Assembly: GCA_004359435.1 (NCBI GenBank) | Contig: PTET01000001.1 | Coordinates: 72,343 to 136,342, forward strand | Direction: 5' to 3' | From: Flavobacteriaceae bacterium | GTDB lineage: Bacteria; Bacteroidota; Bacteroidia; Flavobacteriales; Weeksellaceae | Length of the DNA stretch: 64,000 nucleotides | Shown: positions 2 to 45,714 of the stretch, in pieces | How the letters are laid out: the number at the start of each line of letters is the position of its first letter | Position numbering within the stretch: the first letter of the stretch is position 1 | The notes under the pieces: generated by a model | Seen by the model: the letters and a program-made list of their open reading frames with translations, nothing else | Database searches by the model: none | What the model was told of the DNA's origin: nothing | Translations under genes and position numbers: made by a program

Positions 2-805
2 GCGGATTATTCTCACCCTGGAGACAACATTCCACCGATTATCGCAGTAGCACAACAACTTGGAAAAACAGGAAAAGATGTTATCCGTGGGGTGATTGCT
101 GCCTATGAAGTACACGTAAACCTTGTGAAAGCCATTTGTTTGCACCAGCACAAAATAGACCACGTTGCTCACCTTTGTCCAGGACAAACCGCTGGAGTTT
201 GTGCGATGTTGGGTCTTGATGTAGAAACCACATACCAAGCCTTGAACCAAGCTTTGCACACCTCTATCAGTACACGTCAGTCCAGAAAAGGAGAGATTTC
301 TTCTTGGAAAGCTTACGTACCTGCTCACGGTGCAAAATTGGCCATCGAAGCAGTGGACAGAGCCATGAGAGGAGAAAAAAGCCCTTCTCCAATTTATGAA
401 GGAGAAGATTCTGTTATCGCATGGATTTTGGACGGAAAAGATGCCAACTACACCATTCCCCTTCCTGAGGTAGGAACAGAAAAATTGGCGATTTTGGAAA
501 CCTATACCAAAGAGCACTCTGCAGAGTACCAATCTCAAGCATTGATTGACTTGGCATTCAGAATGAAAGAGAAAATCTCTGATTACAACAACATCGAAAA
601 AATCCTCATCGAAACTTCTCACCACACCCACTATGTGATTGGAACAGGAGCCAACGATCCACAAAAAATGGATCCAAACGCTTCAAGAGAGACCTTGGAA
701 GAAAACCTAGAGAATCTTTCAGCGGAGGAACTACAAAAAATCAACGTAACCATGGACGTGGAAAGCGTTACAAACACTGGAAACAAAGGAATTTTCGGGG
801 TATAA
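2..805 (+). CDS. prpD: 2-methylcitrate dehydratase PrpD (MmgE/PrpD family), 5' end outside window
   Basis: This gene dehydrates 2-methylcitrate in the methylcitrate cycle that oxidises propionyl-CoA. The reading frame is open from base 2, so the start lies upstream; about 267 C-terminal residues of a family of roughly 480-500 are visible. The visible part begins with a His-Pro-Gly-Asp-Asn segment and runs through the conserved [16 protein letters not shown] region and a [14 protein letters not shown] region typical of MmgE/PrpD. It is followed after 48 bases by prpB and then prpC, all on the same strand, which supports the PrpD assignment over a generic MmgE. Family assignment is confident; the 2-methylcitrate specificity is inferred from context. 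Confidence 0.93.
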
Positions 806-9072: not shown

Positions 9073-10653
9073 ATGAAAAAAATATTTTTGCCCCTGATTT
9101 TGACTACATTGTGTTTCCCACTTTTGGGGTTAGCACAAACCAAAGAAACCCAAAAAAGCAAGGAAATTCCCTTTCAGGCTATACATATCAGCCCTGAAAA
9201 GGTGGAATCCTGTGCTTTTGGAGATTTTGACGCAGATGGGCATCAGGACATTGTTTCAGGTTCCAATTGGTTTGCAGGACCAGACTTTTCCAAAGCCATC
9301 CCTTTTAGAGAATTAAGACCCTATTTTGCTTTTGTTCCCAACTCTATGGTGAGTCCAGATGATTTTACCCTCACCCGTGATGTGGATGGGGATGGATTTG
9401 ATGACATCATCAGTGGTGGGCATGATATGGGACTTTTTTGGTACAAAAGTCCAGGGAACCGAAATGTTGGCAATTGGGAGAGAATTCTCATCGATGCGGA
9501 TAGACCGCCAAAAGGAGAATCTAGCACAGAGAGCAAAGCACATGACCTAGGTCTACACAATGGAATTTGGGTGGACATAGACAATGACGGAAAAAAGGAA
9601 GAATTGGTTTCAGGTGGAACCAGACTCAAAGAAGGAAAAGAACATCTGAATTTGCGCTGGTACAAATATGAAAATGGAGCATGGCAAAAATACGATATGG
9701 GTGTGCAATCTCTGGTTTGGGGAGTAGGAGTGGGAGACTTGAACAAAGACGGAAGAAACGATGTAATTTCCACAGATGCTTGGTTTGAAGCACCCCTTGA
9801 CCCCAAAAAAGGGAAATGGACAAAACATCCCTTTCAAATGAATGTATGTGTGGTAGAGGGAGATTTTGAACCTAGATACAAAAGCGAAAACGGGTTTTCT
9901 TATGGCCATGCTTGCAATATTTATGTGTATGACATCAACGCCGATGGACTCAATGATTTTGTCCTTTCCTCTGGACACGGATATGGGATTTTTTGGTATG
10001 AGCAAAAACCCAGCAACAAAGTAGAAATGGAGTTTGTAGAGCATACCATAGACAAAAGTTGGTCACTTTCTCACAATCTACTCTTTGTGGACATGAACAA
10101 AGACCAAATCCCCGATTTGCTGGTTGGAAAACGTTGGGGAGGATGGGGAGCTGGTCAAAACGATGCCAACGGACTCTATTGGTATCAACTCACCCCTGGA
10201 GCGGAAAATCCATTTTCCAAACACATCATCTCCTATGGAGAAAAAATACAGTCTTTTGGAAACAGCTACATCCGTTTGAAATACAAGGTGAATCAAGCCA
10301 ATTCAGGGGTCTATGTTCGGGGAGAAAAAGGGGGGCTTTATGGTGCTTATGGGATGCAAATCGATTTCGGTGGAGAAAAAGACGGACTCCCCATGGGGGT
10401 AACCAAAACCATTTTCAAATTTCTCAAAATTGTTCCCCAAAGTTTGAAATCAGGAGATTATGGACAGTGGAACACACTGGAAATTCAAACCGAGGGAAGA
10501 CATCTTAGAACTTGGGTCAATGGAAATTTGCGTGTAGATGAATACGTAAACACTCAGATGATGCCAGATATGGGGAAACTTGCCTTCCAACTGCACATGG
10601 GAGCTCAGGACAATGAGGTGTACATCAAAGACATTGAGGTTTATGTGCCTTGA
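9073..10653 (+). CDS. Secreted VCBS/FG-GAP repeat protein with C-terminal DUF1080 domain
   Basis: This encodes 526 residues from ATG 9073, chosen because it starts a signal peptide (MKKIFLPLILTTLCFPLLGLAQ) and follows a -7 box. Residues about 35-380 carry six calcium-loop motifs of the type DxDxDG (DFDADGHQD, DVDGDGFDD, DIDNDGKKE, DLNKDGRND, DINADGLND, DMNKDQIPD), the signature of VCBS/FG-GAP propellers. The C-terminus (about 400-526), with NSGVYVRGEKGG, QWNTLEIQ, LRTWVNG and LAFQLHMG, is a DUF1080/3-keto-disaccharide hydrolase fold. Such proteins act on or bind glycans at the cell surface, which fits the rhamnosidase gene immediately downstream. Confidence 0.87.
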   Translation: MKKIFLPLILTTLCFPLLGLAQTKETQKSKEIPFQAIHISPEKVESCAFGDFDADGHQDIVSGSNWFAGPDFSKAIPFRELRPYFAFVPNSMVSPDDFTLTRDVDGDGFDDIISGGHDMGLFWYKSPGNRNVGNWERILIDADRPPKGESSTESKAHDLGLHNGIWVDIDNDGKKEELVSGGTRLKEGKEHLNLRWYKYENGAWQKYDMGVQSLVWGVGVGDLNKDGRNDVISTDAWFEAPLDPKKGKWTKHPFQMNVCVVEGDFEPRYKSENGFSYGHACNIYVYDINADGLNDFVLSSGHGYGIFWYEQKPSNKVEMEFVEHTIDKSWSLSHNLLFVDMNKDQIPDLLVGKRWGGWGAGQNDANGLYWYQLTPGAENPFSKHIISYGEKIQSFGNSYIRLKYKVNQANSGVYVRGEKGGLYGAYGMQIDFGGEKDGLPMGVTKTIFKFLKIVPQSLKSGDYGQWNTLEIQTEGRHLRTWVNGNLRVDEYVNTQMMPDMGKLAFQLHMGAQDNEVYIKDIEVYVP

Positions 10654-10715: not shown

Positions 10716-12620
10716 ATGAAACATTCTTTTTTGTTTTGCCTGTTGGTTATGCTGTTTTTCCCCTTTTTGGGAAATGCCCAAAGCACGCTACAGGTTTCCG
10801 ATTTGCAAGTTGAATATCTCACCCAGCCCATCGCCGTAGATGTAGTGGAACCTAGATTTTCTTGGAAACTCATAGACCAAACCAGAGGACAAAAACAAAC
10901 CGCCTACCAAATTCTTGTGGCTTCCAACAAAGAACTTCTGGAAAAAGAAAAGGGTGATTTGTGGGACAGTGGAAAGGTGAATTCTTCTCAGCTAGCTCAG
11001 ATTGTGTATGGGGGACAAAAACTCCATTCAAACCAAGTCTGTTTTTGGAAAGTCCGCTCTTTTGACAAAGACCAAAACCCTAGCCTATGGAGCGAAGTAT
11101 CTTCTTTTTCCATTGGGCTTTTGCAAAACTCAGATTGGAAAGGAATTTGGATGCAGCATCCCACAGCCTCTGATGAAAAACACATCTGGTTTCGAAAAGA
11201 TTTCACCCTAAATCAAAACACAGAAACGGCGTTTGTTTATGTGGCTTCGGTGGGGTATCATGAGCTTTATATCAACGGAAAAAAGGTGGACGATAGAGTT
11301 CTAGCACCCTCTCTCACTCGACTGAACAAAAGGGTTTTGTATGTAGGATACGATGTAAAAAGCCTTCTGAAGCCAGGAAAAAACACGTTGGCCATTTGGT
11401 ATGGTCCCGGCTGGTCTCGGTACAAACACTACCAAAAGGACATTACCCAATCCTTAAAAGTGCAGATGGAATACGCCTACAAAGATGGCAAAACATTTTC
11501 ACTTTCTAGTGACAACAGCTGGAAATGTAAGGTGAGTTCTAGCCAAAATTTGGGTCACAACAAACATGCAGACAACGGAGGAGAAAGTGTGGATGCCAGA
11601 AAATTTGTAACAAATTGGAATCAGACAGATTTGGATACCAGCGGTTGGGAATCCGCCAAAGAAGTTCAGCTCAATCTGGTTTTGTCTTCACAAATGAGTG
11701 AACCTTCCCGCGTTTTGGATAGCCTTGAAGCAAAAGACATTGTTGAAATCAAAAAAGGGGTGTATCGGATAGATTTGGGAAAGAATTTTACAGGCTTTTT
11801 GTCCCTCAAATTTCGCAATACCAAAGAGGGAGATTTGGTCAAAATTTCCGTTTCAGATGATTCCAAAACCAAAAAAGATTTCGGTCAAAAGTACAGATAC
11901 ATTTGCAAGGGACAAGAGGTGGAAACCTTTGAAAATCGATTCAATTATACCGCTGGAAGATATATTTATCTCTCGGGACTGAGAACCAAACCCAGCCAAG
12001 GGGACATTCAAGCCCTTTTGGTTGGAAATGACCTAAAAGGAAGCGGAAGTTTTACTTCCTCCAACGCTTTATTCAACCAAATATACGACACAGACCTTTG
12101 GACATTTCGCATCAACACCACCGAAGGATTCACCTCAGATTGTCCACACAGAGAGAGATTGGGTTACGGGGAAGAGCTTTTTGCAACCGCTTGGGGAATT
12201 GGAATGCCCACCTACAAAGCAGGGGCTTTTTACAACAACCTGATGCGAAACTGGACAGACATGCAAGAGCCCTCTGGATGGATTTACCACACCACACCAC
12301 AGGCCAATCACATCGCTTGGGGAGGGCCGCTTTGGAGCAGTGCGGGACTGAATATCGCTTGGGAATACTACCAAAATTATGGAGACACAAAAGCCTTGGA
12401 ACTGGTTTATGAACCTAGCCGAAAATGGCTTGAGTTTTTGTCTCAACACACAGAAAATGGACTTCTGGTACCTTATTTTGGTTTTGGAAAATTTCTGGGA
12501 GACTGGGCTGGACCTGGGGGAAGAAAAGAATTTGGGAAAAGAAGGAGAGTTTTTTGTGGTGAAAGTGCCCTCTGGGAGTTATTCTTTTGTTTCTGTTGGG
12601 GGAGGGGAATGATATTTTAA
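10716..12620 (+). pseudogene. Alpha-L-rhamnosidase (GH78), internally deleted
   Basis: The first roughly 608 codons encode a secreted GH78 alpha-L-rhamnosidase: signal peptide (MKHSFLFCLLVMLFFPFLGNA), N-terminal Fn3-like domain with PRFSWKL and QTAYQILVAS, rhamnosidase beta domain (DWKGIWMQ, LYINGKKVDDRVLAP, WYGPGWSR), and the (alpha/alpha)6 start with SDCPHRERLGYGEE (acidic residues from Asp475). At FLGDWAGPGGRKEFGK (about 12,500-12,537) the family sequence stops. The next bases, read in the neighbouring frame to a TGA at 12612, give GEFFVVKVPSGSYSFV, which looks like the normal GH78 C-terminus. About 300 residues including the general-base Glu region are therefore missing, and the frame-3 product ends in 25 unrelated residues at 12620. 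Non-functional as it stands. Confidence 0.82.
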
Positions 12621-13011: not shown

Positions 13012-13713
13012 ATGAAAGATTCATTAATTATAATTCTGTCAGCCTTACTAACGGTCTCTTGTAAAGTAAATACTATACAGAACCAACCCAATTCTTCAAA
13101 TAAGAAAACTACATTGCAAAAAGTAGTTAATGTAGATACAAAACCTTCAATACCAACAGAAGTTGATTCAGTTGATTCAGTTGATTCAGTTAATTCTGAT
13201 TTAGAAAAAACCATAATTTCTGTAATCAAAGCTTATCAAAGTAAGGACGAAAAGAAGTTGAATCGATTGATAAACCCAGAATTTGGAATTGCTTTTTTGT
13301 ATAAAAGAGGAGTCCATGATAACCTCTCTATTGAAAAATCTATTTCGTTTGCAGAACCGACACCAGAGTATCTTCCATATTCCAATGAGATTGATACGGA
13401 TTATAAAATACGTATATCGACCTTGCCTTTTTTTAATTGTAATACCGAAAATTGGGATAAACCACCAGGCATTTACATAGATACAATAAATACAGACCAT
13501 TTACTTTCAGAAACTGCGATTTCAGAAAATAATTTGTTCATAGAAAAAATATGGTCTGATCTTCAAATTGAAGAATTGAAGAACCTTGAAAACAATAGCC
13601 ATAAAATTATTTTATTTGATAAAAACAAAAAAGACTTTATTTTTTATCTCACCAAAGTAAATGACAAATGGTTTTTGTCTGCTATAGATAGAAATGAAGT
13701 TTGTAGTGCTTAA
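13012..13713 (+). CDS. Hypothetical lipoprotein with a tandem Val-Asp-Ser repeat
   Basis: A 233-residue protein starting at ATG 13012, chosen because it gives a lipoprotein signal (IILSALLTVSC, Cys at about residue 17). Residues about 50-62 are (VDS)3VNS encoded by a 9-bp tandem repeat, a linker next to the membrane anchor. The remainder has no recognised domain; the segment DLEKTIISVIKAYQSKDEKKLNRLINPEFG looks like the start of an NTF2-like or DUF4348-type fold, which is a guess. AT-rich and coupled to the gene before it. Confidence 0.62.
   Translation: MKDSLIIILSALLTVSCKVNTIQNQPNSSNKKTTLQKVVNVDTKPSIPTEVDSVDSVDSVNSDLEKTIISVIKAYQSKDEKKLNRLINPEFGIAFLYKRGVHDNLSIEKSISFAEPTPEYLPYSNEIDTDYKIRISTLPFFNCNTENWDKPPGIYIDTINTDHLLSETAISENNLFIEKIWSDLQIEELKNLENNSHKIILFDKNKKDFIFYLTKVNDKWFLSAIDRNEVCSA
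13162..13197 (+). repeat. 9-bp tandem repeat (GTTGATTCA) inside the lipoprotein gene
   Basis: Three perfect copies of GTTGATTCA are followed by a fourth degenerate copy, GTTAATTCT. Unit length is a multiple of three, so copy-number change would alter linker length without shifting frame. Confidence 0.85.
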
Positions 13714-35785: not shown

Positions 35786-35935
35786 GAAGTTTTTTGCCCT
35801 CAATTTTTGTTTCTTTTGTAAGCCTTTCTATTTTGGGACAAAAGAAAAAATAACCCTTTGTTAAGCCCTAAACAAAAACCCTTCTTACCTTTTGTGGTTT
35901 TCCATTCAAAAGAGAAGCTATAAAAACTTGGGAGT

Positions 35936-36205
35936 TTACCACTCATAATGCCCAAAAGCAGATAAAACATAAACAATATCTCCTTCTACTTTATAAACAA
36001 GGCGATGTTCTTTGTTTAGTCGGCGAGACCATAGGCCTGTAAGATTATGTTTTAATAGCTCTGGTTTGCCTGTACCTGTAAATGGGTGTTCAGCAAGTTC
36101 TTGAGAAAAAGAAAGTATTTTGGTTAAAATAACTTTATTTCCTGTCTTTTTAAATTTTTCAATATCTTCTTTAGCTTTGTCGGTAAAATCTAAATGATAA
36201 GACAT
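35936..36205 (-). CDS. YoeB/Txe-family mRNA interferase toxin
   Basis: An 89-residue RelE-superfamily toxin that cleaves mRNA on the ribosome. It matches E. coli YoeB closely in pattern: PFTGTGKPELLKHNLTGLWS, RRLNKEHRLVY and the terminal FGHYEW. The catalytic residues map to Glu49, Arg68, His86 and Tyr87 (E. coli 46, 65, 83, 84). It is preceded by its antitoxin gene one base upstream on the same strand. Confidence 0.93.
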   Translation of the reverse strand: MSYHLDFTDKAKEDIEKFKKTGNKVILTKILSFSQELAEHPFTGTGKPELLKHNLTGLWSRRLNKEHRLVYKVEGDIVYVLSAFGHYEW

Positions 36206-36206
36206 T

Positions 36207-36422
36207 TTATAAACCTAAAAATTCTTTTAAGTTCTCTTTTTTTACACGCGTAACTTTCCCTTCTTTAGCTTGTTTTTCACTTTCTTTTATTTTTTCAACA
36301 AACTCTGGATTATACGGATTGTCTTCGACTTCAAACTTGATCTTAAGGGCCTTCAAGACGGCCTTGATGGCTTCAACTTGAGAAGCATCTTCTATATGTG
36401 CTTTAAAGGAAATTGTAGACAT
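36207..36422 (-). CDS. Antitoxin paired with YoeB (DUF2683-like)
   Basis: A 71-residue protein directly upstream of the toxin (1-base gap). Its N-terminal half is SxSFKAHIEDASQVEAIKAVLKALKIKFEVE-like: a short domain with a helix that could dimerise or bind DNA. The acidic/basic C-terminal tail (NPEFVEKIKESEKQAKEGK) is the typical toxin-wrapping segment. It is not a YefM/Phd sequence, so YoeB is paired here with a different antitoxin type, as often in Bacteroidota. Antitoxin function is inferred from position and size. Confidence 0.8.
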   Translation of the reverse strand: MSTISFKAHIEDASQVEAIKAVLKALKIKFEVEDNPYNPEFVEKIKESEKQAKEGKVTRVKKENLKEFLGL

Positions 36423-36636
36423 AATTCAAGTTTAAAATTCTTTAAATAAATTTTGTTCTTCAAAGATAACAATTTCCAAATTCAATTGAATGATTTTTTG
36501 ATTTTCAAAAACTTCTTCAAATTTCCTAATCTTAAGACCATGGGACGCTTTATAACTACTTGATACAGCCACAACAAAGAATTGTGTAAACACTAAAAAA
36601 TTTCGTTGAGCAGAGTAAGATTCCTGATAAAGTTTA

Positions 36637-45181: not shown

Positions 45182-45714
45182 ATGAGACCCATCGCACTGA
45201 TAACTGGCGCTTCTTCTGGCATAGGTTATGCTTCTGCCCTAACTTTAGCTCCGACTTTTGATTTAATCTTATGCGGAAGAAACCAAGAAAAACTGGCAGA
45301 ATTAGGTCAGAAAATAAAACAGAAAAATCCAGAAACCAAGCACCATACTCTAATTTTTGACGTTCGAGACAAACAGTCGGTTTTTGAACAAATAGAAGGC
45401 TTAGAAAAGCCCTGGAAAAACATCTCTCTTCTTGTTAACAATGCAGGAAATGCGCATGGTTTGGCTCCTTTTGATTCAGCAGACTTAGAAGATTTAGAAA
45501 CCATGATATTGGGCAATGTGATGGGGCTAATTTATGTAAGCAAGGCGGTTGTTCCACTGATGGTACAAAACAAAAATGGTCACATTATCAACATTAGTTC
45601 TACCGCTGGGAAACAAGCCTACGCCCAAGGTATGCCCCATCTCATGTACAATTTGCAGATATTACCTTAATGCCCAAAGCACAATCTGATGCGACTACTT
45701 TTTGGAAGGAGTAA
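45182..45714 (+). pseudogene. Short-chain dehydrogenase (SDR), internally deleted
   Basis: The first 149 codons encode a classical SDR of the YdfG type: TGASSGIGYASA (NADP loop), NNAGNAHGLAPF and INISSTAGKQAYAQG with the catalytic Ser. At about 45,630 the sequence jumps. The frame in use runs out after 13 unrelated residues (stop 45670), while the +1-type neighbouring frame from 45,625 reads YAPSHVQFADITLMP and on to a TAA at 45714, the normal C-terminus of this SDR group. The YxxxK active site and about 70 residues are missing. Its 3' end overlaps the end of the converging ArsC-like gene by 20 bases. Confidence 0.82.

Follow-up and report, generated by a model that had tools for sequence, protein, structure and literature searches.

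A GH78 rhamnosidase gene without its middle probably reflects technical sequence dropout across a draft Flavobacteriaceae assembly

INTRODUCTION

In SaRha78A, an α-L-rhamnosidase of glycoside hydrolase family 78 (GH78), the catalytic residues are the general acid Glu636 and the general base Glu895 (PMC7263609). Metagenome assemblies have been documented to contain local errors by which coding sequences are corrupted (Chen et al. 2020, PMC7111523). The GH78 gene analyzed here, together with other genes of the same assembly, resembles the local assembly and scaffold-gap errors of that report in that coding sequences are corrupted at joins, several per genome; however, those errors were defined by read support, whereas ours are read from the assembled sequence alone. 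The case can also be compared with the deletional decay of pseudogenes in reduced genomes, with which it shares retained gene ends, lost gene middles and a small genome, and from which it differs in that essential genes are hit, 1–2 nt frameshifts are lacking and a local copy has been pasted into greA.

We analyzed a 64-kb stretch (hereafter, the window) of contig C1 in an assembly of 1.65 Mb in 5 contigs with 83% completeness. Judging from these statistics, the draft is presumably metagenome-derived. Features are listed in Table 1.

Table 1. Positions of the features discussed (window coordinates, except for greA)
Feature	Position	Strand	Observation
5΄ part of the GH78 α-L-rhamnosidase coding sequence	10716..12536	+	no internal stop; domains matched, relatives aligned
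GH78 junction TTTGGGAAAAG	12531..12541	+	...RKEFG on the left arm, ...LGKEG on the right
Natural GH78 C-terminal tail GKEGEFFVVKVPSGSYSFVSVGGGE, then stop	12532..12612	+	+1 frame; tail matched in relatives
Out-of-frame nonsense end of the GH78 ORF (KRRRVFCGES...GMIF, then stop)	12537..12620	+	ORF translation
In-frame fusion of an FG-GAP protein with a DUF1080/3-keto-disaccharide hydrolase domain	9073..10653	+	junction near 10250-10275
prpD	2..805	+	~363 nt lost internally, in frame, near 695-736, compared with the G027 orthologue
SDR gene	45182..45714	+	lacks ~226 nt near 45633; natural tail ...PSHVQFADITLMPKAQSDATTFWKE, then stop, in another frame
greA 35-nt copies	G000:C1:214475-214509 and 214709-214743 (L173)		exact identity

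RESULTS

The GH78 similarity of the open reading frame at 10716-12620 (634 aa) runs to ...FLGDWAGPGGRKEFG, at approximately position 12536. The part up to this point encodes a signal peptide, Ig-like, N-terminal and concanavalin-like domains and the first half of the six-hairpin catalytic domain. A Pfam search matched Ig_Rha78A_N, Bac_rhamnosid_N and Bac_rhamnosid at near full profile length (E = 4e-34, 1e-36 and 3e-12, respectively), and covered only profile positions 3–158 of 339 of the six-hairpin domain; no C-terminal domain was matched in this ORF. The best solved homologues align to approximately residue 600 and no further. The general acid is present, as E480 in DCPHRERLGYG (aligned to Glu636 of SaRha78A), and the general base falls by alignment within the absent stretch, where the relatives carry WPEYW.

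After EFG, the frame shifts, and the neighboring frame continues as LGKEGEFFVVKVPSGSYSFVSVGGGE up to a stop codon. We searched with this tail alone (tblastn), and found that it matched the exact natural C-terminus of five relatives: L042 from Chitinophaga (57% identity over 23 aa, E = 1.9e-4), L043 from Chitinophaga (E = 0.002), L050 from Maribellus, L049 and L046. Between the xEFG/xExG motif and the SGxYxF end, the relatives contain 273 residues (263 in L042), compared with 28 nt in the window copy, and about 760–790 nt (254–264 codons) are absent at the junction by alignment. Because the missing length is of the form 3n+2, it accounts for the frame change, and no homopolymer difference is needed.

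These results bear on the first-pass annotation, which had described the gene as lacking its middle-to-C-terminal part and had taken the neighboring-frame tail for the natural end of the family. The truncated six-hairpin match, set against the extra stretch in the relatives, bears out the former, and the tail search confirms the latter. The annotation had put the loss at ~300 residues including the general base; the base is indeed lost, but the estimated size was too large.

Close relatives were obtained in a scan of genome contigs, in which a two-row alignment query with a Parabacteroides homologue found 80, and the GH78 protein alone found none. They occur in Chitinophaga (L042, L043), Verrucomicrobia (L044, L045), an uncultured Algibacter (L047), Maribellus (L050) and others, with 50–57% identity over the kept part. 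Like the window copy, they have the same or a very similar DWAAPGGRKEFG motif and the SGxYxF-type terminus; the left-hand motif is GKFLGDWAAPGGRKEFG in Chitinophaga, and the right-hand end common to the relatives is KVIGKEDGSTVLQVPSGKYTFVSEN. Unlike the window copy, with its missing codons and changed frame, they are ~900 aa long and contain a full six-hairpin domain with the WPEYW general-base motif. When the full-length proteins were aligned, as had been proposed as a check, none of them ended or skipped at the break point.

Scans of viral contigs yielded no GH78 matches, and tblastn against plasmids and phages yielded only homologues of 25–35% identity. Among 321 genomes of the same taxonomic family, no close homologue was found, only very remote matches. 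This near-absence from its own family, together with the closest kin being in Chitinophaga and Verrucomicrobia, suggests on sequence grounds that the GH78 gene was horizontally acquired. Adjoining it is a low-GC ORF of unknown family with a GTTGATTCA tandem repeat (DSVDSVDSV, 13150–13190).

The window contains four lesions, or ~1 per 16 kb: those in GH78, prpD and the SDR gene, and the FG-GAP/DUF1080 fusion. The FG-GAP part of the fusion tracks ~400-aa homologues to ...HIISYG and misses the last ~30 aa; the DUF1080 part begins a few residues further on, with the first ~48 profile positions absent. This fusion could be natural, and natural fused FG-GAP and DUF1080 proteins do exist, with ~310 aa more between the domains. 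Window prpD keeps both sides of its loss and the terminus, as judged from the G027 orthologue (81% identical). Its N-terminus is missing, and just before the window, at C1:72342, stands a single N; the gene across this join is also cut and is, by eye, presumably SPFH-like. The SDR gene is interrupted after ...KQAYAQGM and then continues with its natural tail in a different frame. Elsewhere in the window (~35900–36500, minus strand), visual inspection suggested a small relB/yoeB-like toxin–antitoxin pair, flanked by thrA and a 2-oxoacid dehydrogenase E2 gene.

We compared 250 kb of contig C1 (from the 1648-kb assembly) with 2.18 Mb of the relative G027 in both directions. The rest of this sample contained four further lesions, in mnmG (–226 nt), asd (–214 nt), folD (–499 nt) and a MoxR ATPase gene (–44 nt), giving an overall frequency of ~1 per 30 kb. 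We take these gene names, and those of greA and leuS, from recognition of the sequences and general knowledge, as we do the essentiality of asd and folD. Queries with the complete Asd, MnmG and FolD proteins recovered only the two flanking fragments of each gene from the whole assembly and did not reveal another copy; the single further Asd match is a remote paralogue (29% identity). The genes thrA, thrB, thrC, carA and carB look intact. In greA, moreover, ~26 codons have given way to 35 nt that exactly repeat the gene's own upstream sequence and finish with a stop codon; this pasted segment looks like misplaced local sequence. C1 contains two single-N joins (72342 and 208306), and genes are cut on both sides of them.

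Small lesions were not seen: none of the 97 compared loci had a 1–2 nt frameshift, and no stop codon lay well inside an alignment except that of greA. The other six of the seven flagged stops sit at the 5΄ edges of alignments and are probably upstream of the gene start. We did not count two weak additional 'deletions' at 25–34% identity, which we took for divergent members of a family. With the comparison reversed, G027 showed no deletions of this kind; the sole case flagged was an insertion in leuS of the present genome.

The junctions share little sequence, with alignment overlaps of about –5 to +10 nt; prpD is the exception, where chance extension blurs the boundary. Since only a few bases are shared, simple repeat collapse by a k-mer assembler is not favored. 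We considered a common motif, TTTTGGAAA, at the GH78 and FG-GAP breaks, which proved to have 18 copies in the 64 kb and to be missing at the other junctions. We also asked whether the missing segments are low in GC content or fold strongly, and saw no consistent difference in the relative.

DISCUSSION

The gap in the GH78 gene most probably represents a dropout at the level of the assembly or the library rather than a GH78-specific biological deletion, as far as the assembled sequence allows this to be judged. The gene has both its ends but lacks its middle, and lesions of the same kind occur in essential genes that have no intact copies and recur across the assembly whatever the function of the gene. 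The implication of the first-pass annotation that the loss is peculiar to GH78 is thus not sustained. Essential and accessory genes are both affected, small lesions are absent from the compared loci, greA contains a pasted segment and completeness is low, all of which argue for a technical cause. It is also difficult to reconcile the loss of Asd and FolD, alongside otherwise clean frames, with a living cell in which thrA, thrB, thrC, carA and carB have stayed intact. We propose that tens to hundreds of bases may have been dropped at many sites of the draft and the two sides joined directly, either by gap closing in a short-read scaffold or by chimeric template or read joins at low coverage. 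The closing of scaffold gaps or the chimeric joining of templates would fit the junctions better than repeat collapse, and the real GH78 gene of the organism would be whole.

An alternative, which we regard as unlikely, is a real and recent deletion, in which a host-dependent or reduced lineage sheds genes by internal deletions and GH78 is one of many fresh pseudogenes. The small genome would agree with this (1.65 Mb with a completeness of 83%, compared with 2–5 Mb in many members of the family), as would the status of GH78 as an acquired accessory gene, given the lack of a close homologue in the 321 family genomes, and the clean remaining frame, which fits a very recent event. The junctions are compatible with end joining at short microhomologies, and real end-joining deletions would give similar ones. 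However, asd, folD and mnmG are broken without copies beside intact biosynthetic neighbors, and greA is scrambled. Small lesions are common in decaying genomes, whereas the 97 loci contain no 1–2 nt frameshifts and a single nonsense codon (in the scrambled greA), with larger deletions dominating; essential genes are not spared, and the mixture of nonsense codons, small frameshifts and deletions is not found. It is rather improbable that the lesions are real and that, in a Flavobacteriales lineage with a small genome, genes across the whole genome are losing their middles, essential genes among them, almost only by deletions of 40–800 nt and with hardly any point-type pseudogenes. Were this so, an unusual deletion-prone repair state or host dependence would be implied, and if reads proved the lesions real, they would represent a striking deletion-driven genome decay.

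Two further explanations concern the GH78 gene itself. The gene might be naturally short, with one extra A hiding an in-frame tail, as the first-pass annotation had proposed in pointing to a homopolymer difference (AAAA versus AAA). Removal of one A does put the two GH78 pieces in frame, yet ~260 residues stay missing: all full-length relatives carry them here, catalytic base included, and none ends or skips at this point. As 1–2 nt frameshifts are also absent elsewhere in the sample, a homopolymer error by itself is very improbable. Even harder to credit is that the truncated protein has been retained for some function other than catalysis, such as the binding of rhamnosides by its N-terminal domains. 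These domains are complete and a signal peptide is present, but the protein stops inside the (α/α)6 barrel with a nonsense tail, a homologue of this architecture was not found and neighboring genes carry the same lesion type.

Technical dropout, the reading that we prefer, has little consequence for GH78 biology. It serves instead as a warning that absences, truncations and fusions in this assembly (asd, folD, mnmG, prpD, the rhamnosidase and FG-GAP/DUF1080) should not be taken as biology, and the 83% completeness may in part reflect such dropouts.

As a separate observation, the leuS ORF (G000:C1:288074-291403, 1110 aa) is extended in frame by an inserted segment of ~160 aa with resemblance to a DUF559 endonuclease-like domain. 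The same ORF also contains repeated SPPSEGLGE-type segments, which look like a mobile palindromic element inside an essential gene.
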